Source: a virus. Taken from it: a DNA stretch of 37,554 nt. The DNA lies in IMG/VR virus record IMGVR_UViG_3300034061_001879, positions 1 through 37,554 of that record. The stretch is one strand, 5' to 3'. A program made the position numbers and the translations under genes. The notes beneath the pieces were generated by a model. That model searched no databases, was not told where the DNA came from, and was given only the letters and a program-made list of their open reading frames with translations. How positions within the stretch are numbered: the first letter of the stretch is position 1; each line of letters starts with the position of its first letter. Below, one piece after another: positions 2,542 to 33,074 of this stretch.

Positions 2542-2598
2542 TGGGCTAATTTGGGCTTAAATATAATGAATTGGTAGTAAAATACAAATTTTTACACT

Positions 2599-3717
2599 AT
2601 GAAGTTAAAAGTAAACATAGATGGATATATTGACAAGTACGGAGGGTTCTCACTTGCTCAACTAAAATCTATTGTTGAAAGCAATACAGATGCAACCGAG
2701 TTAGAGTTGTTTATCAATTCAGAGGGCGGTGATGTAGTAGAGGGATTTGCTATTCATGATTATTTGACTGCATTGGATATTCCGATAGGATGTACCATTG
2801 AGGGGTTATGTGCATCTATTGCCACAGTAATAGCATTGGCAGCCAAAAAAGATAAGCGCAAAATGTACTCTAATGCTAAAATAATGGTTCATAATCCTTA
2901 TTGGACACCTTCAGCACCGATAGGAATGGAAGCAGACGAATTGAGTTCATTAGCAGTACAGTTAAAAGATGTAGAAGCGCAACTATCTAACTTTTATGTA
3001 AACAAGTTAGAACTACCTGAGAACGAAGTAAACGACATGATGAAAGCCGAAACATGGTTGACTTCATCTAAGGCTTTGGAGATGGGTTTTGTTTCAGCAA
3101 TTATAAACGAAAAAGCAGTAACAAACAGAAAACAATTAACAATTAAAGCACAAATAAAAATAGAAAACATGACAAAAGAATTTACCGATGAACAAAAAAG
3201 TTGGATTGAAAAGAAATTCAACAACTTAAAATCAATGTTCAAAATCACCATTAAGAACCAAGTAGTAAAACTTGAAGATGGTAACGAAGTTTTTGTTGAA
3301 ACAGAAGATGGCGACTTCATGGGTAAAAGAGTTTTCCTTATGGTAGATGGCAACATGACCGACACGCCAGCACCCGATGGCGAACACGTAACAAAAGATG
3401 GAAGAACCATCGTAGTAGCAGGCGGTATCGTTACTGAAGTTAAAGAAGCAGAAGATGTTGAAGCATTGAAAAAAGAATTAGCAGAAGCTAAAGCTAATGC
3501 AGAAGCATTAAACGCTAAAGTTACCGAATTAGAAACAGCAAAAGCAGAAGTTGAAACCAACTTCGAAAATGCAAACCGTGAGTTTTTGAATTTCAAAAAT
3601 CAAATCCTTACAGGCAAAATTGAAAATGAGCAAGACTTTCCTAAAGGCGGTGAGCCAGAAAAAGTTTCTGCTAAAGCTAAAGCAATAGAAATTATTAATC
3701 AAAATAAAAAAAAATAA
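2599..3717 (+). CDS. ClpP-like prohead protease with scaffold-like C-terminus
   Basis: The first 165 or so of 372 residues form a ClpP/S14-type serine protease: the sheet region ELELFINSEGGDVVEGFAIH, the serine motif GLCASIA (Ser73) and the histidine in MVHNP (His98), followed by the usual ALEMGFV segment. The C-terminal half is highly charged, with a coiled coil at about 285-335 rich in Ala, Glu and Lys, and it resembles an internal scaffold. Protease fused to scaffold directly before the capsid gene is a common phage arrangement. It should shape and then cleave the procapsid. Confidence 0.88.
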   Translation: MKLKVNIDGYIDKYGGFSLAQLKSIVESNTDATELELFINSEGGDVVEGFAIHDYLTALDIPIGCTIEGLCASIATVIALAAKKDKRKMYSNAKIMVHNPYWTPSAPIGMEADELSSLAVQLKDVEAQLSNFYVNKLELPENEVNDMMKAETWLTSSKALEMGFVSAIINEKAVTNRKQLTIKAQIKIENMTKEFTDEQKSWIEKKFNNLKSMFKITIKNQVVKLEDGNEVFVETEDGDFMGKRVFLMVDGNMTDTPAPDGEHVTKDGRTIVVAGGIVTEVKEAEDVEALKKELAEAKANAEALNAKVTELETAKAEVETNFENANREFLNFKNQILTGKIENEQDFPKGGEPEKVSAKAKAIEIINQNKKK

Positions 3718-3720
3718 GAC

Positions 3721-4725
3721 ATGGCAAACGTAATTAACACCGTTCCGGTACAAGAAACAGAAGGCTACAACCTTTATGTAAAACCACTTTTAGACGACCC
3801 ACAAATTCAATCTTTACCGTTTGATATGTTAGTAGGCCCGTTCAAAAACCACGAACTTTACTTTACTCAAAACTTGGATAAGATTTCAAGTAAGAAAGTA
3901 GCGTGTGGTTGGAACTTCAACGGTTCAACCGATGTAACGAAAAAAACATTAGTACCTGTTGAAATTGAAGCAGCAGTAGAGCAATGCTACACACCATTAA
4001 TTAACACTATCTATGCAGGTGGGTTGCCTGATGGTTGGAGACGTGGTGAGTTAAGTGCAGAAGTATTAGCGTTTATGGCTACACGACAACAGTATGCATT
4101 TAACAGAGATTTACTGTCATTCTTGTTCTTAGGTGATACTATTAGCGCAGTACCTTATTACACTCCGTTTGATGGTATTTATAAGAAGTTGAAAGCAGGT
4201 GCAAACGCTTCAGATGGTACTGTTTTCGCAGGTGCTATTACAGCTTCTGATTTGAATGCGACTAACTTCTTTGCTACTATGAAAGGCATTTATGACGCTC
4301 AAAATAGACAGTTAAAAGGTGTGGCTAAGAATGCTAAAACATGGATTTGGACTGAAGCGGTTTATGATGCTTACTTGAATTACTTGTATGTGTCAACTCA
4401 AACCAATGCAGGTATCATCCAAAGAGAAAGCATCGTTAATGGCTTAGAAGCTAACTTCTTCTTAAACATTCCAATCTTAGTTGTACCTATCGTTGACGAA
4501 AGATTAGAAGAAGATTTCTTAACAGGTTCACCTGCTGCACCTACTAATCCATATCGTGTTATTTTGACTGACCCAAGCAACCACAAATTATTGATGGATG
4601 CAAACGGTTTAGCACAACAAGAAGCATGGTACGAGAAAAAAGACGATACCTACTACTTAATAGGTAGCGCACTTATCGCTTATGAGTATGGCTTTGGTGA
4701 TTTGAACGTAATCGCTGGATTTTAA
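3721..4725 (+). CDS. Major capsid protein
   Basis: The 334-residue protein starts three bases after the protease stop. Its position straight after the protease/scaffold gene, its size and its composition (few cysteines, many beta-prone stretches, a C-terminal segment about an early-encoded fold ending in AYEYGFGDLNVIAGF) fit an HK97-fold capsid protein. I recognise the context more firmly than any single motif. It is followed by a short intergenic hairpin and the probable tail tube gene. Confidence 0.8.
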   Translation: MANVINTVPVQETEGYNLYVKPLLDDPQIQSLPFDMLVGPFKNHELYFTQNLDKISSKKVACGWNFNGSTDVTKKTLVPVEIEAAVEQCYTPLINTIYAGGLPDGWRRGELSAEVLAFMATRQQYAFNRDLLSFLFLGDTISAVPYYTPFDGIYKKLKAGANASDGTVFAGAITASDLNATNFFATMKGIYDAQNRQLKGVAKNAKTWIWTEAVYDAYLNYLYVSTQTNAGIIQRESIVNGLEANFFLNIPILVVPIVDERLEEDFLTGSPAAPTNPYRVILTDPSNHKLLMDANGLAQQEAWYEKKDDTYYLIGSALIAYEYGFGDLNVIAGF

Positions 4726-4736
4726 TTAACTAACAA

Positions 4737-4756
4737 GGGCGGTGAAATACCCGCCC
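4737..4756 (+). terminator. GC hairpin between capsid and tail-tube genes
   Basis: GGGCGG (4737-4742) pairs with CCGCCC (4751-4756) over an 8-base loop, followed by an AT-rich stretch without a clean T run. It sits 15 bases before the probable start of the next gene. It could weaken read-through, protect the capsid mRNA from decay, or affect translation of the next gene. A GTG inside the hairpin can open the next frame but is an unlikely start. Confidence 0.5.
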
Positions 4757-4771
4757 ATAAATTTTATAACA

Positions 4772-5332
4772 ATGTCAGCATGTGTTGAAATTATACAGGG
4801 TATAGACCCGAATTGCGCTGCACTAAATAAACAGGGCGGTATTAACAAGCGAGTATGGATTGGGCAACTTTCACAGTTGACAGGCTATACTTTAGATGTA
4901 GATGGATATGTGAACACTATTACTTTAGGTGTAGTAAGTTCTATTCAACAAACATTAAAGAAATTTATCGGTAAGAAGTTTAAGCACGCTGCTACCTTTG
5001 AAGGAGAGATAGGCGAAAACGTGAACACGGTTAATCAATCGGTTGCATTGGCTCTTTACTATTCAACTCCTGCTGAAAGACAGGCAATTGAAAGCCTATT
5101 TAATGCAGATGATGTCTTTATGGCGGTAGAAGGTAACTACGGTGGTATTGAGATTTATGGCATTGAGTTAGGTTTAAATGCTTCTGCTTTAACAGGTGGT
5201 TTACAAACATTACTTAACGATAACACAGCCACTATCTTAACTTTGTCAGGTGCACAGTTAGGATTACCAAAGCAATTCAAGACAGGTACATTAGCGCAGG
5301 ATATAGCCTACTTAGATGCTATTAGTGCATAA
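4772..5332 (+). CDS. Probable major tail (tail tube) protein
   Basis: The 186-residue protein starts at ATG 4772; a GTG 30 bases upstream lies inside the hairpin and would add ten unlikely residues. It is a soluble, beta-rich protein, with features such as YGGIEIYGIELGLNASAL near the C-terminus that are typical of tube subunits, in which one sheet ends in an accessory loop. It is alone after the capsid gene and is followed by a strong terminator, as expected for an abundant structural protein. It could instead be another virion protein. Confidence 0.55.
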   Translation: MSACVEIIQGIDPNCAALNKQGGINKRVWIGQLSQLTGYTLDVDGYVNTITLGVVSSIQQTLKKFIGKKFKHAATFEGEIGENVNTVNQSVALALYYSTPAERQAIESLFNADDVFMAVEGNYGGIEIYGIELGLNASALTGGLQTLLNDNTATILTLSGAQLGLPKQFKTGTLAQDIAYLDAISA

Positions 5333-5354
5333 TTAAGAAAATTGTTTAAATTTG

Positions 5355-5384
5355 AAGCGCAATCATAAAAGGTTGCGCTTTTTT
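5355..5384 (+). terminator. Rho-independent terminator
   Basis: AAGCGCAA (5355-5362) pairs with TTGCGCTT (5373-5380) and is followed by a T run. It closes the capsid/tail-tube transcription unit and separates it from the glycosyltransferase island. Confidence 0.85.
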
Positions 5385-5388
5385 ATTT

Positions 5389-5595
5389 ATGACTAACCAA
5401 GAAAAAGCAATAAAGGCAAAAGAAATCATTGGAGATAAAAAAATGATGGAGTGCAAGTTCACCGAGCTAAACACTGCCTATTATACTATCTATGGCGAAT
5501 ACTTAAAAAGAAGTTGTTTAAACACAATTAGACACGCTTATAATTCAATTCAAACATTTATAAAAGCACATGAAAATAGCAGTAATAACAGCTAA
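5389..5595 (+). CDS. Hypothetical protein, 68 residues
   Basis: The gene starts 4 bases after the terminator T run and overlaps the next gene by 26 bases. It is soluble and charged, with no signal peptide or membrane segment. The pattern CKFTELNTAYYTIYGEYLKR followed by a second basic helix suggests a small helical protein. I do not recognise the family. The overlap with the glycosyltransferase gene suggests co-translation with the sugar-modification island. Confidence 0.55.
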   Translation: MTNQEKAIKAKEIIGDKKMMECKFTELNTAYYTIYGEYLKRSCLNTIRHAYNSIQTFIKAHENSSNNS

Positions 5596-6202
5596 CGTTG
5601 GCGGGTTTGATATACCTAAATTAATTCCTAATCAGACTTTAGAATATGATTTAATAAGAATAGATGATGTGAATATTGTAGGGGATAATAGGCATAAGGC
5701 AAAACTACCAAAGATGCAATCGCATTTATTTTCTGATGCAGATATACACATTTGGATTGACAGCAGCGTACAAGTAAAAAGCGAAAAATTTGTAAAATAC
5801 ATGGTTGAGCAATTAGCTAACAATGATATTGCAATAGGTAAGCATAACTTAAGAGATTGTGCATATTCTGAAATGTACTATATTATTCGTGAAATAGAAA
5901 ACGGCAACAAGTATTTAGAAAGCAGATACAATAAAAATGACTTGTTAGCAGTTAATGCTTTTTTGCGTTCTAATAATTTCCCCGAAAGAATGGGGCTGTG
6001 GGCATGCGGAATATTTGCTAGATACAATAATGATAAAGTAAATGCTATATTTGATAAATGGTGGGAAAGCGAATGTAAATATCTAACTATTGACCAGCCG
6101 ATGTTTTCTTATTTTGCACAACAGATTAAAGTAAATACTATAACTTGGAACACCTTAATTGATAACGAATATTTTAATTTAATTCCACACAATGAAATAT
6201 GA
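5570..6202 (+). CDS. DUF616-like putative glycosyltransferase
   Basis: The 210-residue protein opens with a Rossmann-like strand (MKIAVITANVGGFD), then has a basic segment and the DxD-like WIDSSVQV at about 63-70, and ends with an Asp-Gln-Pro segment near 183. This is the layout of the DUF616/TOD1-like hypothetical glycosyltransferases found in capsule and phage clusters. It overlaps the next gene by 11 bases. With the three genes downstream it forms an island that could decorate phage particles or alter the host surface. The donor and acceptor sugars cannot be told. Confidence 0.65.
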   Translation: MKIAVITANVGGFDIPKLIPNQTLEYDLIRIDDVNIVGDNRHKAKLPKMQSHLFSDADIHIWIDSSVQVKSEKFVKYMVEQLANNDIAIGKHNLRDCAYSEMYYIIREIENGNKYLESRYNKNDLLAVNAFLRSNNFPERMGLWACGIFARYNNDKVNAIFDKWWESECKYLTIDQPMFSYFAQQIKVNTITWNTLIDNEYFNLIPHNEI

Positions 6203-22450: not shown

Positions 22451-22643
22451 TGAAGCCCCACATGAATTGGAAGTAAGAAATAAAGTGCCATCATATAGAA
22501 AAATAGCAATAGCAATATTAAAAAATGATAATTCACTTAAAACACTTGGATTAAACACATTTATATCAAAGTATTATAGTTGCTATAAAAAAATAGAAAT
22601 AGAACAAAGAAATAAATCAAAACAACTAAAACTTAATTTATGA
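22383..22643 (+). CDS. Small protein related to the C-terminal domain of IbrA
   Basis: The 86-residue protein overlaps the upstream gene by 68 bases and the IbrA-like gene by 4. Its segment VPSYRKIAIAILKNDNSLKT resembles the IbrA-like protein's VASWKRFAITILKNDHTCKY, so the two share a domain, likely a DUF3440-associated helical unit. It may help IbrA bind its substrate or partner. The relation between the two is visible directly in the window. Confidence 0.65.
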   Translation: MKERILKYIQEWETKCYYNGIPDEAPHELEVRNKVPSYRKIAIAILKNDNSLKTLGLNTFISKYYSCYKKIEIEQRNKSKQLKLNL

Positions 22644-23935
22644 TAAAAAAATTAGAAATTAATGTACTTGAGGCTTCAAAGCAAAGAATTACTTACATAC
22701 TTCAAAACTTTAAAAAAGTATATGTAAGTTTTTCAGGAGGCAAAGATAGCGGTGTCATGCTTAATCTAATGATAGATGAAATAAGGCAAAATTACCCTGA
22801 CAGAAAGATAGGCATAATGATCTTAGACAATGAAGCTAACTATAATCTTTCATTAGAATTTATGCATCGCATGATGCAAAACAACAGAGATGTGTTAGAT
22901 ATTTATTGGTGCTGTTTGCCTATTACTTTACCTTGTACGGTATCAAGTTATGAGGTTGATTGGCAGTGTTGGGGAGAAAACGATAAAGATAGGTGGATAA
23001 GACCAATGCCAAAAGATGATTATATAGTTAATATTAATAACCACAAATTCCCTTTTTTTAAAGAAAACATGGGTTATCAAGAGTTTTGGGATGAGTTTGG
23101 CGAATGGTATTCAGGTGGCGAAGACTGCGCCTGTTTAATAGGCATTAGAACACACGAAAGTTTAAACAGATGGAGGGCAATAGTTAATGAAAATAAAGAA
23201 ACGCATGGTAATAATCTATGGACAAAACGAAATACACAGCATACATATAATTGCTACCCAATTTATGATTGGAGAACAGAAGATATTTGGATAGCAAACT
23301 GTAAATATGAATGGGATTACAATAAGTTATATGACGTTTTTTGGAAAGCTGGTTTGTCTATTCATCAAATGAGGGTTGCCTCTCCATTTATGAGCGAGAG
23401 TAAGAGTTCATTAAATCTTTATAGAATAATAGACCCACATGTATGGGTAACATTATGTGCAAGGGTAAACGGTGCAAATTTTGTAGCTACATATGGTAAA
23501 CAATTAAATTACCATAGTTTTAAATTGCCAAAAAATCATACTTGGAAAAGTTTTGTAAAATTTTTATTAGATACTTTACCCGAAAAGTCTGCTCTAAATT
23601 TTAAGCAGCGATTTATCCAATCTATTAAATATTGGGGCAGGATAGGTCGAGGATTGCCTGAAAAAACTATACAAGAACTAAAAGATAATAATATTGAATT
23701 TAAGCTAAATGGCAACACGGCACATGGTAATAAAGATAAAGAAAGGGTTATAATACAATCGTTACCAGACCATTTGGATATGCTTAGTTGTCATAATTCA
23801 GATGTAGCAAGTTGGAAAAGATTTGCTATAACAATACTTAAAAATGACCACACGTGTAAGTATTTAGGGCTTGCACCTACAAAAGACCAAATAGAAAGAA
23901 TGAAATACATTAAACGCAAATACAGCAAAATATGA
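22640..23935 (+). CDS. ibrA: IbrA-like PAPS reductase-family protein (DUF3440)
   Basis: The 431-residue protein has the ATP-pyrophosphatase loop SFSGGKDSG (residues 30-38), a MILDNEANYNLSLEF segment, and the DUF3440-type CLPITLPCTVSSYEVDWQCW followed by WIRPMP. This family is related to phosphoadenosine phosphosulfate reductases and DndC-type enzymes, but the true reaction is not established. It sits in an operon with a cupin and an IbrB-like gene. Its C-terminal domain resembles the small protein encoded just upstream. Confidence 0.85.
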   Translation: MIKKLEINVLEASKQRITYILQNFKKVYVSFSGGKDSGVMLNLMIDEIRQNYPDRKIGIMILDNEANYNLSLEFMHRMMQNNRDVLDIYWCCLPITLPCTVSSYEVDWQCWGENDKDRWIRPMPKDDYIVNINNHKFPFFKENMGYQEFWDEFGEWYSGGEDCACLIGIRTHESLNRWRAIVNENKETHGNNLWTKRNTQHTYNCYPIYDWRTEDIWIANCKYEWDYNKLYDVFWKAGLSIHQMRVASPFMSESKSSLNLYRIIDPHVWVTLCARVNGANFVATYGKQLNYHSFKLPKNHTWKSFVKFLLDTLPEKSALNFKQRFIQSIKYWGRIGRGLPEKTIQELKDNNIEFKLNGNTAHGNKDKERVIIQSLPDHLDMLSCHNSDVASWKRFAITILKNDHTCKYLGLAPTKDQIERMKYIKRKYSKI

Positions 23936-25126: not shown

Positions 25127-25843
25127 ATGAACACATACTACATTTTAGGTCAACATGCTCATTGGAATATAAATAAAAGATTAGCTAAAAAAGTTGGTAT
25201 TGAAGCAGCTTTATTGCTTTCAGATTTAATTTCTAAAAGGGAATATTTTATAATTAATAAAGATATTTCTATAACAGATTGGTTTTTTAACACTGCTGAA
25301 AATATAGAAATGGACACTTTATTAACTCCACACAAGCAACGAGAGGCAATAAAATTACTTATTGAACATAATTTTTTAGAAGTTAAATTAATGGGAATAC
25401 CTGCAAAAAATCATTTCAAAGTCAATGATATTCAGTTATTAAATTTTTTAACAACAAGAAGTGAAGAAATTAAACAACAAGAAGTGAAAAATTTTGACAC
25501 TAATAATAATAAAGAACAAGAACAAAGTAATTTTAATAATAGTAATAATAAACCCGAAAATGAATTAACCGAATTACCACCTCATATAAATTTTGCATTA
25601 AGGCTCTTAGATGAAAACGATACAGAGGGGGCAGCACATCTTGAAGCAATAGAATATCAGACGAAAACTAAAATTACTAAAGAACAAACAAAATTATTTA
25701 GAATGCACCTTGTTACCGAAAATAAGAACTACGATAATTTTAATGACTGGATACGACATTTTAGGAATTGGTTAAATACTAAACCAAATGTTAAACCTAA
25801 GCAAGAAATTAAAATGCCTTACGAAAAAAGAAATCAGCAATGA
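25127..25843 (+). CDS. Replication initiator-like winged-helix protein
   Basis: The 238-residue protein opens with a winged-helix pattern of phage replisome organisers (YYILGQHAHWNINKRLAKKV; LTPHKQREAIKLLIEHNFLE), then an Asn/Lys/Glu-rich linker at about 120-150, and a C-terminal helical part (DNFNDWIRHFRNWLNTKPN) that fits a helicase-loader domain. It probably opens the phage origin and loads the DnaB helicase encoded two genes downstream. Start and stop overlap the neighbours. Confidence 0.7.
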   Translation: MNTYYILGQHAHWNINKRLAKKVGIEAALLLSDLISKREYFIINKDISITDWFFNTAENIEMDTLLTPHKQREAIKLLIEHNFLEVKLMGIPAKNHFKVNDIQLLNFLTTRSEEIKQQEVKNFDTNNNKEQEQSNFNNSNNKPENELTELPPHINFALRLLDENDTEGAAHLEAIEYQTKTKITKEQTKLFRMHLVTENKNYDNFNDWIRHFRNWLNTKPNVKPKQEIKMPYEKRNQQ

Positions 25844-26517
25844 AAAAATATAGAATTCTTAATCTTTATGCCTGTTTGGGCGGAAATCGTTATAAATGGG
25901 ATTTAGTAGCGAAACAAGCGGGAGTTGAAATAGAAGTAACTGCGGTTGAATTAGACCCCGAACTTGCAAGGCTATACCAAGAACGTTTCCCTAATGACAT
26001 AGTAATTATTGCCGATGCCCATCAATATTTATTAGACCACTATAAAGAGTTTGATTTTATTTGGAGTTCGCCAAATTGCCCAACCCACAGCAGAATAAGA
26101 TTTAATCAAGCAAAAGGTAGAAATGATAATATTTATAAAGCAGAATACCCAGACATGAACCTATACGCTGAAATAATTTTACTTGATAATTATTTCGATG
26201 GAAAGTTTGTAGTTGAAAATGTAATACCATATTACGAGCCATTAATTACAGCGCAAAAAAGAGGAAGGCATTTATATTGGTGCAATTTTACATTACCTCA
26301 AGTATTAAGCAATAGAGAAGTGCAGGTTGGTAGCGGGACTGAAGAAGTAAAAAAACTATGTGAATTTCACGAAATAGACCTATCAACATACAAAGGGAAA
26401 CAGCGTAAAGATAAAATAGCCCGAAACTTAGTTGACTACGAAGCAGGTAAAACAATATTTGAAACCGCTTTAGGAATAATAAACAAACCCTATACTAAAC
26501 AAGCAGAACTATTCTAA
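25840..26517 (+). CDS. C5-cytosine DNA methyltransferase-like protein
   Basis: The 225-residue protein has motif I as LNLYACLGGNRYKWDLV, an acidic SAM site (VTAVELDPELARLY), a motif IV variant SSPNCPTHSR with the catalytic Cys at about 79 (in place of PPCQ), the ENV of motif VI (VVENVIPYYEP) and RGRHLYWCNF like motif VIII. The space for a target-recognition domain is small. It may protect phage DNA from restriction or act in regulation; the target is unknown. Confidence 0.75.
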   Translation: MKKYRILNLYACLGGNRYKWDLVAKQAGVEIEVTAVELDPELARLYQERFPNDIVIIADAHQYLLDHYKEFDFIWSSPNCPTHSRIRFNQAKGRNDNIYKAEYPDMNLYAEIILLDNYFDGKFVVENVIPYYEPLITAQKRGRHLYWCNFTLPQVLSNREVQVGSGTEEVKKLCEFHEIDLSTYKGKQRKDKIARNLVDYEAGKTIFETALGIINKPYTKQAELF

Positions 26518-29570: not shown

Positions 29571-29921
29571 TAGCCCTTTACAAAGCAACGGAGAGGTTGT
29601 ATAAGAGCATCGGAGTAGTGGTTTGGCTAAAGACGTTTACAGCTACTCTTAAAGCGTTATAAATGGGACTATGCAAAGCGCAACGGTGGTGCGAAAGTTA
29701 CGAGCCGTAAGACATAGATGCAAGTTGAATATTGCAGACAGTGGGTAACAAGTAATCGGTAATCAACGACACGATTAACACTAAAGACGAGAGGCTCATT
29801 TCGACAAGCTAATTAAGTCTAAAGTGGTGCAACCAACTACTAATTAACTTTAGTAGGGGGACTTGCTATCACTTTAACTCAAGGTCTATTTCTCTAAGCT
29901 AATAATAAAAGAAAAAAGTAT
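29571..29921 (+). ncRNA. Hairpin-rich non-coding region before the terminase
   Basis: About 350 bases without a credible ORF. Visible pairings: CAAC/GTTG (29586-29599), GAGTAG/CTACTC (29613-29648), CGCA/TGCG (29679-29693), TAATCG/CGATTA (29753-29777), CTAAAGT/ACTTTAG (29819-29853). The number of compact stems suggests a structured RNA, or a packaging (pac/cos) signal next to the terminase. I do not recognise a family. Confidence 0.5.
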
Positions 29922-29929
29922 TAACTTTG
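29922..29929 (+). promoter_or_regulatory. -7 element TAACTTTG just before the terminase start
   Basis: TAACTTTG matches TAnnTTTG and ends four bases before ATG 29934. The -33 position has no TTTG. If active, it gives a leaderless late transcript, as also suggested at 15599. Confidence 0.5.
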
Positions 29930-29933
29930 AAGT

Positions 29934-30371
29934 ATGGGTAGACCATCAAAATTTAGTGAAGAACTAGCCAATCAGATATGCGAAAACATCGCGCATTCAG
30001 ATAAAGGATTAGTTTCTATATGCAAAGAATTAGGCTTAAATGCTTCAACTGTTTATGATTGGATTAATAATAATTTAGAATTTGCCAACAAATACGCGCG
30101 CGCGAGAGAAATTCAAGCTGATTATTTAGCCGACCAAATAATTGAGATTGCAGACGAAACACATTCAGATACTACCGTAAATGAACAAGGCTATGAAGTA
30201 ACTAACCATGAAGTCATCGCGCGAAGTAGGTTAAGAGTTGACGCGCGAAAGTGGAAAGCATCTAAATTATACCCTAAAAAATACGCGGATAGAATAGATA
30301 GTGATTTTACAACTAAAGGTGAAAGTCTAAATTTACCACCATTTATGCGCGCCAATGAAAGTAAATCCTAA
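29934..30371 (+). CDS. terS: Terminase small subunit
   Basis: The 145-residue protein has an N-terminal helix-turn-helix (LVSICKELGLNASTVYDWIN, residues about 25-45), a central coiled helix (FANKYARAREIQADYLADQI) and the ARSRLRVDARKWKASKLYPKK segment typical of phage small terminases. It binds phage DNA and helps the large subunit start packaging. It overlaps the large subunit by 17 bases. Its codons are odd for this genome: several Ala GCG and Arg CGC/CGA codons produce CGCG repeats. Confidence 0.88.
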   Translation: MGRPSKFSEELANQICENIAHSDKGLVSICKELGLNASTVYDWINNNLEFANKYARAREIQADYLADQIIEIADETHSDTTVNEQGYEVTNHEVIARSRLRVDARKWKASKLYPKKYADRIDSDFTTKGESLNLPPFMRANESKS

Positions 30372-32397
30372 CTTTACCCATCTATACGACAAGATTGAAC
30401 AAGACCGTGTTATATTGCTACAAGGCGGAACGCGATGTTTTGTTGGGTCCACATTAGTAATGGCCGAACATGGCCCGAAAAAAATACAGGATATAAAAAT
30501 TGGCGACAAAGTTTATTCATGGTCCGGTAGTCAACAAGTATTAAGAAAAGTTGTTAATAAGTTTATATACAAGAGTGAACAGTCATGCCATAAATTAGTT
30601 AAATTTACGTTTATTAATAACGAAACAATTGAATGTACTTATGGACACAAATTTTTGTATGAAGGCAAATATGTTGAAGCAATTAACATTGCCAAACGAA
30701 CAATGGAAAGAAGTAAAGAATACGGATGGCCGATACATGGTAAGCAACTTGGGCCGATTAATGGCCATGAATTACAAGCTAACCGGAAAGGCCAAGATAA
30801 TGAAGCCTGCGGAAACGGATGGCTACATGAGAACAATGATATTAATAAAAGGGAAATATTCAACCGTAAAGGTCCACAGATTAGTAGCGGAGGCATGGGT
30901 GGAGAACAAATTGGCCAAACCAGAAGTAAACCACATCAATCACAATCGGGCCGACAATCGGGCCATAAACTTGGAGTGGGTAACTCATCGCGAAAATATA
31001 GACCACATGATGAAGCACAACAGGCAGGCAATGAACAATGGGGCCAAGAATGGAATGGCCAAGATAACAGAGGATATCGTAAGAGCGGTCAGGACCGAAT
31101 ACAAACCAAAGATTGTTATGGCGAAACACTTGGCCGAGAAGTACAATTTAAAGGTGGGCCATGTGAAAGAAATAGTGCAAATGAGAACTTGGGCCCATGT
31201 GAAATAACTGATTGCATAATTTCGGCCATTGAGTTTATAGAGTATAACGGACCTGTAATTGATATTGAGGTCCAAGAGTATCATAATTACTTTGTAACTA
31301 ATCAAAAAATAATAACCCATAATTCTGGCAAAACTTATTCAACTATACTTTTTTTAATTGACTACTGTTTACAATATCGCGGAATGGAAATTGATATTGT
31401 TCGCGATACATTTACCGCGCTAAAGTCAACGGCATGGAAAGACTTTCGCGATGTTTTAATTAATTGCAACCTTTATAAAGAAAGCAACCATAATAAGACG
31501 GACCACGAATATGAGTTAAATGGCAATGTTATTAGTTACTATGGCGCGGACACCCCCGCGAAGATACATGGACGCGCGCGCGATATACTTTGGGTAAACG
31601 AAGCGCATCAGTTCCCTGCCGAAACAATAGACCAACTATTCCCACGTACAAGGCATAAGATAATAGCAGATTATAACCCTGCATTAGGGTTAGAGCATTG
31701 GTTAGATACTTACATAGACCAATACCCACCTTGCATAACTACCTATAAGGACAACCCACATTTAACCGAAGCGCAAATCCAAGACATTGAAAGCAGAAAG
31801 AATAATCAATACTGGTGGCAGGTGTACGGAAGCGGACAACGTGCTAATCGTGAGGGCGCAATATTTACTAATTGGATAACAGGCGAATTTGACACATCGT
31901 TACCTTATTGCTACGGTCAGGATTATGGTTTTAGCGTTGACCCTACCACCTTAGTTAAGGTAGCAGTAGATAACAAGCTAAAAATAATATACGCTGAAGA
32001 ACTACTTTACAGCCAAGCGGGCATGGGTACAGATGCAATCTTTGAAGCTAACAAAAGATTGATACATAAGCCAAACGATTTAATAATTGCGGATAGTGCC
32101 GAACCGAGATTGATTGATGAACTTAGTAGAAAGGGCTTAAACATTCGAGGAGCGGTTAAAGGTCAAGGCAGCGTAACAGCAGGCATAACCCAAATGCAAG
32201 ATTATAAGATAGTTATCACGCCACAGTCAACTAACTTAAAGAAAGAGATATCTAATTATTGTTGGTCAGATAAGAAAGCAGGTATACCGATTGATGACTA
32301 CAACCATTTGATTGACCCGATTAGGTATAGCTTACAGTCGATGACACGAACAGTACAAGCGTTTGCACGAAACTTTAAAAAGACTTTTGACGTATGA
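30355..32397 (+). CDS. terL: Terminase large subunit interrupted by an intein
   Basis: The 680-codon frame encodes N-extein residues 1-27, an intein (28-323) and C-extein 324-680; the spliced protein is 384 residues. Splicing joins GGTR and SGKT into the Walker A loop GGTRSGKT, so unspliced protein cannot be an ATPase. The Walker B strand is DILWVNEA (near 410-416); nuclease acidic sites are likely at GQDYGFS (Asp523), IADSAEP (Asp579) and IDDYNHL (Asp647/648). The enzyme pumps DNA into the capsid and cuts it. The extein flanks up to 31582 are CGCG-rich; the rest of the gene is not. Confidence 0.93.
   Translation: MKVNPNFTHLYDKIEQDRVILLQGGTRCFVGSTLVMAEHGPKKIQDIKIGDKVYSWSGSQQVLRKVVNKFIYKSEQSCHKLVKFTFINNETIECTYGHKFLYEGKYVEAINIAKRTMERSKEYGWPIHGKQLGPINGHELQANRKGQDNEACGNGWLHENNDINKREIFNRKGPQISSGGMGGEQIGQTRSKPHQSQSGRQSGHKLGVGNSSRKYRPHDEAQQAGNEQWGQEWNGQDNRGYRKSGQDRIQTKDCYGETLGREVQFKGGPCERNSANENLGPCEITDCIISAIEFIEYNGPVIDIEVQEYHNYFVTNQKIITHNSGKTYSTILFLIDYCLQYRGMEIDIVRDTFTALKSTAWKDFRDVLINCNLYKESNHNKTDHEYELNGNVISYYGADTPAKIHGRARDILWVNEAHQFPAETIDQLFPRTRHKIIADYNPALGLEHWLDTYIDQYPPCITTYKDNPHLTEAQIQDIESRKNNQYWWQVYGSGQRANREGAIFTNWITGEFDTSLPYCYGQDYGFSVDPTTLVKVAVDNKLKIIYAEELLYSQAGMGTDAIFEANKRLIHKPNDLIIADSAEPRLIDELSRKGLNIRGAVKGQGSVTAGITQMQDYKIVITPQSTNLKKEISNYCWSDKKAGIPIDDYNHLIDPIRYSLQSMTRTVQAFARNFKKTFDV
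30436..31323 (+). mobile_element. Intein in TerL Walker A with an out-of-frame endonuclease
   Basis: The 888 bases (296 codons) begin with Cys (CFVGSTLVMAEHGPKKIQDI, block A), have block B as IECTYGHKFLYEGKYVEA (T-Y-G-H), and end with block F DIEVQEYHNYFVTN and block G ITHN followed by Ser, so Cys1, the TxxH, the final His-Asn and the +1 Ser are all present. Intein residues about 1-78 and 257-296 form the splicing domain. Residues about 79-256 in this frame are Gly/Gln/Asn/Lys-rich and unlike any domain; those bases encode an HNH protein in the +1 frame. GGCC occurs 15 times in this stretch, and I found only two elsewhere (near 3835 and 19143). Confidence 0.92.
30671..31207 (+). CDS. HNH homing endonuclease nested in the intein in the +1 frame
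   Basis: The 178-residue protein has a NUMOD4-like N-terminus (NEQWKEVKNTDGRYMVSNLG), the HNH core VHRLVAEAWVENK with PEVNHINHNRADNRAINLEW and HRENIDHM (His88, Asn96, Asn100, His112), and a C-terminal helix-turn-helix (KITEDIVRAV; HLAEKYNLKVGHVKEIV). It is complete and undamaged. ATG 30671 is chosen because the domain begins just after it; ATGs at 30641 and 30659 and a TTG at 30629 are also possible. It must be made by internal initiation or a +1 shift. It is expected to cut intein-less terL genes and cause homing. Confidence 0.9.
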   Translation: MLKQLTLPNEQWKEVKNTDGRYMVSNLGRLMAMNYKLTGKAKIMKPAETDGYMRTMILIKGKYSTVKVHRLVAEAWVENKLAKPEVNHINHNRADNRAINLEWVTHRENIDHMMKHNRQAMNNGAKNGMAKITEDIVRAVRTEYKPKIVMAKHLAEKYNLKVGHVKEIVQMRTWAHVK

Positions 32398-33074
32398 TTA
32401 AACTTAAAGTTAAAGAAACGATTTACGATGTACCTACGAACTTTGATGAATTGACATGGCAACACTTTGTTAAAATATGTTCAAATCAAGATAGGTCAAT
32501 TATAGAGCGAATAAACGCTGTAACTAATATTCCAATAGAACATTTATTAGAAGTCAATATTGAGTCGTTTGGTAATATTTGTAATATACTTGAATACATT
32601 GACAAATTGGATATTGTACAATATTTCGGTGGCTTAGAAATAGATTTAAACATAGGAAAAGAAAGTTATGGAGATCTAGAGAAAGCACGCCAAGAAATAA
32701 ATCAAAGTGGTTCATGGATTAAAGCAGCAAATAAAGTTGGGCTAATTTACTTAAAAGAGGATATTAGTGAATTACATTTGCCTTTAGCAATAGCTAAGAT
32801 TAAACCTGTATTTGATAAGATAAATGAATTTCTAGAAAAGTACAGAAAGTTGTTTGAAGGTGAAGTAGAAGCAGAAGAACAGATGGCAGGGGTTGAAGTG
32901 TTGAGTAAGTTTGGTAGTTTTCCTACTATTGACCGTTTGGCAATAGCTTATGGAAAGACACATGATGAAGTCTTAGCAATGCCTGCCGAAATAGTCTATA
33001 CTAAGTTACTATATGACTTAGAGAGTAGTGAGTACCAAGAAAAATTGCATAAAATTAAATCAGCTATAAAGTGA
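32394..33074 (+). CDS. Tail assembly chaperone-like protein
   Basis: The 226-residue protein overlaps TerL by 4 bases. It starts with a short strand segment (KLKVKETIYDVPTNFDEL), is helical throughout, and has the ending DEVLAMPAEIVYTKLLYDLE. The genes that follow are tail genes leading to the tape measure. Such proteins before tape measure genes are often assembly chaperones. I do not see a frameshift version, and the identification is by position and pattern. Confidence 0.5.
   Translation: MIKLKVKETIYDVPTNFDELTWQHFVKICSNQDRSIIERINAVTNIPIEHLLEVNIESFGNICNILEYIDKLDIVQYFGGLEIDLNIGKESYGDLEKARQEINQSGSWIKAANKVGLIYLKEDISELHLPLAIAKIKPVFDKINEFLEKYRKLFEGEVEAEEQMAGVEVLSKFGSFPTIDRLAIAYGKTHDEVLAMPAEIVYTKLLYDLESSEYQEKLHKIKSAIK

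Follow-up and report, generated by a model that had tools for sequence, protein, structure and literature searches.

The window analyzed here is a viral record (IMG/VR IMGVR_UViG_3300034061_001879), 37,554 bases long, in which the terminase genes terS (29934–30371) and terL (30355–32397) overlap. The TerL frame is open for 680 codons, 296 of which belong to an intein inserted between the GGTR and the SGKT of the Walker A motif; the predicted spliced TerL has 384 amino acids. The intein has Cys1, a block B TYGH (30637–30648) and a terminal His-Asn, followed by the Ser of SGKT as +1 residue. Pfam finds Terminase_3, Terminase_3C and Hint (31.0 bits, cut-off 29.7) in this frame. The element thus has the features of a Hint-type Cys1 intein: Cys1, TxxH, His-Asn, a +1 nucleophile, a predicted Hint fold and, as described below, intein-free alleles.

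On the same strand, in the +1 frame relative to the intein, lies an HNH nuclease gene. This frame is open from 30599 to the stop TAA at 31205–31207 and has three candidate starts, the last of which gives a protein of 178 amino acids. Pfam scores are 36.9 bits for NUMOD4 (cut-off 23.4) and 28.7 for HNH_3 (cut-off 24.8), and PHROG HNH families also match. The best sequence-profile match is I-HmuI (1U3E; E 2.8e-22, positions 19–181), and 1U3E is also the sole PDB chain found by Foldseek at E ≤ 0.001 with the nuclease model (mean predicted local distance difference test score, pLDDT, of 85). The C-terminal DNA-binding part is assigned from the 1U3E profile match and from helices in the model. With HNH, NUMOD4 and the I-HmuI fold, the nuclease can be described as I-HmuI-type.

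AlphaFold was run on 23 inteins. For that of the window, residues 1–90 and about 251–296 are modeled at high confidence as Hint-like strands, whereas residues 96–250 have pLDDT below 50, and this low-confidence stretch nearly coincides with the DNA common to the nuclease. The intein is accordingly predicted to consist of two confident Hint halves, with a disordered linker between them where the DNA also encodes the nuclease. Model and profile match the BIL, gp41-1, DnaB and DnaE inteins, NpuDnaE being among the structures. A sequence-only reading had already placed an intein with these motifs in the terminase Walker A loop, with a complete HNH nuclease of 178 residues (NUMOD-like, HNH and helix-turn-helix parts) in its +1 frame. 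Its motifs and coordinates are borne out, the domains agree with Pfam, the 1U3E profile and the model helices, and the length is that of the ATG 30671 product.

Table 1. Features of the terL locus in the window (L008 is a related locus; ORF, open reading frame)
Feature	Position	Strand	Basis
TerL N-extein, ending ...GGTR of Walker A	30355..30435	+	Pfam; L008 empty site = GGTRSGKT
Intein, Cys1 ... His-Asn	30436..31323	+	Motifs; profile matches solved mini-inteins, both ends
N-terminal splicing part, residues 1–95, block B TYGH	30436..30720	+	AlphaFold pLDDT block means 84–94 (residues 1–90)
HNH homing-endonuclease ORF, +1 frame, ATG 30641 (or TTG 30629, ATG 30671)	30641..31207	+	Pfam, PHROG, profile, model
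NUMOD4 segment, +1 frame	30698..30838	+	Pfam PF07463, E 4.2e-9
Intein-frame linker, residues 96–250, over most of the nuclease	30721..31185	+	pLDDT <50; 0 stops
HNH_3 catalytic segment, +1 frame	30869..30997	+	Pfam PF13392, E 1.1e-6
C-terminal helical (helix-turn-helix-like) part, +1 frame	31070..31177	+	Model helices, residues 144–179; alignment to 1U3E
C-terminal splicing part, blocks F and G, ...IITHN	31186..31323	+	pLDDT block means 78–93
TerL C-extein, beginning Ser-Gly-Lys-Thr; RNase H-like nuclease domain further downstream	31324..32397	+	Terminase_3, Terminase_3C

We searched for relatives (given L numbers here) with the window nuclease and intein as queries, and found the out-of-frame layout at the same Walker A position (site a) in 31 contigs, the window included. 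Contig names were counted, several loci on one contig scoring as one; many are near-copies, and one (L007) ends at the contig edge inside the intein. A +1-frame HNH in related terL inteins, which the earlier reading had proposed to look for, is therefore present. Among the best 80 of 562 relatives, 18 have the layout; the remaining 62, whose surroundings were inspected for only part of them, have 4 to 33 stops in that frame. Site-a loci with a full-length intein match share the same offset and have no intein-frame stop across the nuclease, with the exception of L203, where the intein halves seem to be separate ORFs. This last arrangement resembles the fractured genes of Dassa and colleagues (2009), reportedly split inteins whose two halves flank an endonuclease gene that stands on its own.

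The host terminases at site a span Pfam families (Terminase_6C in L022, Terminase_3C in L037). A pattern search found the intein motifs in 60 of 65 non-redundant loci of both sites (site b is described below); on reading, four of the five misses have them and the fifth is a fragment. The pattern was mislocated in L160, L177 and L191, no Cys1 was seen in L191, and some site-b inteins terminate in Ser-Asn. Across 23 rows, among them stand-alone and fractured relatives, His and Asn residues of the nuclease catalytic region do not vary. A genome scan with the site-a nuclease alignment gave no bacterial-genome relative, and three site-a intein queries gave no intein match over 80% of the query among GenBank phages; the Ruminococcus phage matches that were read are Hint domains in other proteins, where the nuclease profiles had no match. 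Ruminococcus phage NatCom_3870 (L229) has three neighboring Hint-domain proteins with different C-terminal parts (314–2008, 2576–3373 and 4236–5789).

A second site (site b) is seen in L008, whose TerL is close to that of the window: its Walker A is empty, and a later intein has an out-of-frame HNH in the +2 frame. The site-b nuclease matches HNH_3 and gives no NUMOD4 match. With the L008 nuclease as query, the intein frame was open across the nuclease in 73 of the best 80 of 227 relatives; the other seven comprise four fractured terL genes (L182, L183, L187 and L188) and three loci with the nuclease downstream of terL (L173, L180 and L186). L020 (2691–5561) combines both sites in a single TerL ORF with two inteins, each with its own out-of-frame HNH, of different families (+1 and +2). 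The L175 contig, a carrier of a nested site-b nuclease, has at its end the C-terminal part of a site-a-like intein (L206, 12–116) and may be a second double carrier. In GenBank the site-b layout occurs in Tetrasphaera phage TJE1, Acinetobacter phage vB_AbaM_Highwayman and Rhodobacteraceae phage LS06-2018-MD07, in whose records the locus is annotated only as terminase large subunit, and in the unannotated faecal clone MT838676. The site-b alignment found two loci in bacterial genomes, neither of them dual: in L219 terL is fractured, and in L218 the nuclease stands alone downstream of terL.

The overlap of the intein and nuclease frames is not due to chance. The nuclease was recoded synonymously with window codon usage, or its own synonymous codons were shuffled, in 500 trials each. 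Against no intein-frame stop observed across the window nuclease, recoding gave a mean of 20.8 (minimum 11) and shuffling a mean of 7.5 (minimum 2); the third frame has 31 stops. In non-redundant sets, 19 complete site-a nucleases have no intein-frame stop (mean of 20.0 expected; none of 9500 recodings stop-free), nor do 45 site-b genes (mean of 5.4 expected). Non-dual relatives have stops about as often as recoded genes do, at 19.2 observed and 17.9 expected for 63 site-a HNH genes (near-copies and fractured forms included) and at 5.7 observed and 4.4 expected for seven site-b relatives.

We examined which frame is under selection by classing substitutions in pairs 75–97% identical in DNA (14 pairs for site a, 33 for site b and six for a non-dual control, the pairs being non-independent). 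Only isolated changes were classed, with 787, 1299 and 210 clustered ones excluded, respectively. Per opportunity, nuclease-silent changes that alter the linker occurred at 0.096 (site a), 0.085 (site b) and 0.087 (control) for transitions, with both sites close to the control, and at 0.040, 0.066 and 0.057 for transversions. Nuclease-changing substitutions were about 8 to 20 times rarer than nuclease-silent ones. Changes creating an intein-frame stop numbered 0/1747 at site a and 0/2826 at site b, against 15/604 in the control, and those creating a nuclease stop 0/1156 and 0/3347 opportunities at sites a and b. Changes silent in both frames were not more frequent at site b (15/249) than linker-changing ones (640/8219). 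From these classes, selection keeps the amino acids of the nuclease, and the intein linker mainly as a stop-free frame. By the terms of the sequence-only reading itself, conservation of just one frame in related phages would have spoken against it; the opposite was found, both being kept in the 31 site-a contigs and in the 73 of 80 best-matching site-b loci, although the constraint on the two is unequal.

Comparison with L008 gives an intein-free allele for site a. The DNA is 96.2% identical over 29877–30434 and 92.6% over 31324–32308 (a 985-base stretch of the C-extein), the terL coding parts, once joined, come to 1152 bases in both, and the empty site reads GGTRSGKT; L009–L012 are empty too. 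Between joined terL bases 66 and 171, a region picked post hoc, the window and L008 differ at 14 of about 105 bases, vs. 88 in all 1152; these denser differences around the insertion point are possibly a co-conversion tract. More distant relatives were compared by local alignments, in which some TerL pairs cover 150–240 columns only. The window nuclease is 56–60% identical to those of L003, L006, L021, L022 and L193, and TerL 23–38%; for L030, L035, L037 and L195 the values are 53, 49, 40 and 40% (nuclease) and 27, 34, 23 and 22% (TerL). In apparently vertical pairs TerL is the more conserved (85% vs. 79% for the nuclease in L003/L006, 78% vs. 72% in L021/L193). The excess of nuclease over TerL identity favours lateral spread without proving it.

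We consider it likely that the window holds a mobile Walker A intein with a nested +1-frame nuclease of I-HmuI type, made separately by internal initiation and homing into terL. Translation of the terL frame would give a precursor, from which, judging by the sequence, the Hint halves with their disordered linker would splice out and restore TerL. The linker DNA doubles as the gene of the NUMOD4-HNH homing endonuclease. Translation of the latter would begin internally on the shared mRNA, either at ATG 30641, which falls within the TYGH codons of block B, or at ATG 30671. Homing would proceed by nuclease cleavage of intein-free terL alleles and copying of the element during repair, as empty sites and the patchy distribution suggest. 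Selection preserves the nuclease sequence, and the intein frame in that stretch mainly as stop-free.

Of 64 non-redundant loci, 61 have an in-frame ATG close to where the nuclease begins. By reading of the translations, block B often supplies it at site a, through its Tyr-Gly or Tyr-Asp codons, and at site b it usually arises where a codon end meets the TGG of a conserved Trp. Candidate ATGs in L178, L189, L191 and L221 have strong Shine-Dalgarno-like sites ahead of them; in L191 and L179 such a site stands before a later ATG rather than the first. Site-b starts have 11.4 A in 20 bases vs. 7.2 (31/44 in the top 5% for A), a richness confounded by the lysine codons of a conserved intein motif, and are weakly folded (21/44 in the least structured 10%, a class that also takes in 8/17 site-a starts). 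In both respects they resemble starts of Bacteroidetes mRNAs, which, according to PMC6847099, are without Shine-Dalgarno sites and favour A at -3 and low structure.

Several points weigh against the reading of a mobile intein with an internally initiated nuclease. Splicing, internal initiation and homing are all steps that we infer. The Intein_splicing family (PF14890) scores 18.9 in the window, under the cut-off of 35.8. At site b an open frame in any one gene is less exceptional, 378 of 22,500 recodings being stop-free. At site a, doubly silent changes (17/160) are more frequent than linker-changing ones (271/3805), so that some constraint on the linker is possible, and nuclease identities may surpass those of TerL partly through different constraint. 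No candidate start in the window has a strong Shine-Dalgarno site. Over all loci, pairing with the anti-Shine-Dalgarno is in the strongest 5% for only 6/64 starts, with 3.2 expected; this expectation is an underestimate, and even the excess doubtful, since the best of several candidate ATGs per locus was taken. Shine-Dalgarno pairing was therefore rejected as a general proof of internal initiation. Just 2/17 site-a starts are in the top 5% for A, and ATG 30641, the window start that was tested, is neither unusually A-rich nor unfolded. Finally, the conserved ATGs coincide with conserved intein codons and could be preserved by the intein frame alone.

The chief rival to internal initiation is programmed ribosomal frameshifting, by which the N-extein and N-intein would be fused to the HNH protein. 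Both the weak Shine-Dalgarno context in the window and the open HNH frame ahead of its likely starts, where it overlaps the intein frame, suit such a mechanism. We nevertheless find it unlikely: an ATG is placed near the HNH start in nearly all loci, strong Shine-Dalgarno-like sites accompany it in a few, the equivalent layout at site b uses the other frame, +2, and homologues exist as stand-alone ORFs beside terL.

Another alternative takes the HNH frame for a decaying relic, the intein being the sole relevant product. Homing endonucleases do frequently decay once fixed, but the rarity of nuclease-changing substitutions, the absence of changes to nuclease stops and the invariant catalytic-region His and Asn, extending to stand-alone and fractured relatives, make this very improbable here. 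The insert might also be removed as RNA, as an intron with an HNH ORF, or retained as proposed for the ShiLan domain (see below). HNH enzymes of the I-HmuI type are typical of group I introns, and I-HmuI is indeed the structural match. An Rfam scan of 29800–32500, however, gave no family match, so that an intron is not indicated, and with Cys1, TxxH, His-Asn and the +1 nucleophile conserved, a Hint fold predicted and the intein frame kept open, removal or retention has slightly less still to recommend it than a relic. Errors of sequencing or assembly do happen in metagenomes, yet we found no specific support for one having moved an ordinary in-frame HNH domain out of frame, and the identical offset in 31 contigs, the intein halves in one frame, the overlap stop-free throughout and the named GenBank phages with the layout at site b leave it a negligible chance.

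Some inteins carry their endonuclease as an in-frame domain. Like these, the window element has two Hint halves with endonuclease-coding DNA between them and would home as a whole; unlike these, its nuclease lies outside the precursor polypeptide, the in-frame segment is a predicted disordered linker, and the HNH is offset by +1 at site a and +2 at site b. Fractured genes likewise have an endonuclease gene between two splicing halves, but there the gene is broken and splicing occurs in trans, whereas the window intein frame has no stop separating the halves and the nuclease is nested inside it. The proposal of the sequence-only reading, that a single DNA stretch codes for an intein linker and a separate HNH nuclease and so differs from in-frame, endonuclease-less and fractured inteins, is supported by both frames being open. 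I-HmuI, which shares the HNH and C-terminal DNA-binding architecture of the window nuclease, is borne by a phage group I intron, while the window nuclease sits in an intein.

The TerL inteins of crAss-like phages are reported as in-frame Hint-Hop inteins (PMC7886860). The nearest published case that we found is the ShiLan domain, which together with similar HNH inserts lies out of frame in phage DNA methylases; its authors detect no intein motifs or self-splicing domains, do not expect splicing and judge it not to be an intein (PMC11855218, 2025). The ShiLan and window elements are alike in having an HNH in another frame of the insert, an open host frame and a patchy distribution, and they raise the same question of how the nuclease gets translated. 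The host frame of the window insert, which lies in a phage terminase gene, is in contrast a recognizable intein; with intein motifs and fold there, we do not class the element as ShiLan-type. The earlier reading knew of no described case. For inteins this agrees with our searches of one open-access library, which turned up none of this kind (most subscription papers and all bioRxiv preprints lay outside the search, so novelty is provisional); for out-of-frame HNH inserts that are not inteins, the ShiLan report goes against it.

An endonuclease nested in another frame adds to the layouts known for inteins one in which the precursor is without the nuclease and a terL annotation conceals it. These are natural long overlapping genes, with two frame offsets and measurably unequal constraint, and offer a test bed for the origin of overlaps. 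One carrier, Tetrasphaera phage TJE1, is a sequenced phage whose host is named. The layout also links three states, the stand-alone nuclease beside terL, the nuclease nested in an intact intein and that between fractured-gene halves, by which the origin of split inteins becomes testable.

The other two states are represented among the relatives. Stand-alone HNH genes lie immediately upstream of terL in L032, L033, L036, L048, L051 and L056, and the fractured-gene layout is seen for related HNH genes in L042, L182, L183, L187, L188, L203, L219 and L228. The nuclease lies between fractured-gene halves in L042, where the C-half is DnaB-like, and in L047; L043 shares the coordinates of L042, and a stop interrupts the nuclease ORF of L046. 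In GenBank, separate ORFs for the N- and C-intein are found at terL in Vibrio phage 1.238.A, Lactobacillus phage CL2 and Brochothrix phage BL3, the last with a short nuclease match only. On quick, unrooted trees with many weak forks and long branches, the layouts were grouped with few label changes (4 and 7). Nested rows set against the rest need three changes at site a and five at site b, so that a single origin per site is unsupported. Descent of fractured from nested forms is left unsettled by these trees and by the mixed nuclease frame offsets of the fractured loci.

More tentatively, and as a possibility that falls a little short of probable, out-of-frame nesting may be widespread and have evolved at least twice. 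HNH genes targeting terL would have entered small inteins, the second frame would have been made stop-free and the start borrowed from conserved intein codons; stops arising there would then turn the element into a fractured gene whose intein is split, and the layout might in this way be a source of split inteins.

Elsewhere in the window are a PAPS-reductase/DUF3440 gene (22640–23935) and a short C5 cytosine methylase-like ORF (25840–26517), the latter without a sequence match among solved structures. Base composition of the intein was also examined. Of the 17 GGCC sites of the window, 15 fall within the intein, where dinucleotide shuffles give a mean of 2.6 and a maximum of 8 in 1000. The L017 intein (2796–3683) has 13 and the 2.9 kb of flank examined contains none; 12 other site-a inteins have 0–3 each. 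Only five aligned sites are common to the window and L017, so the gain looks parallel, and GGCC enrichment is insufficient as a simple mark of foreign origin. Outside the intein the window is depleted in GATC (2 vs. 64 expected), CTAG (7 vs. 108), GGCC (2 vs. 48) and CCGG (9 vs. 33), as if under restriction pressure.

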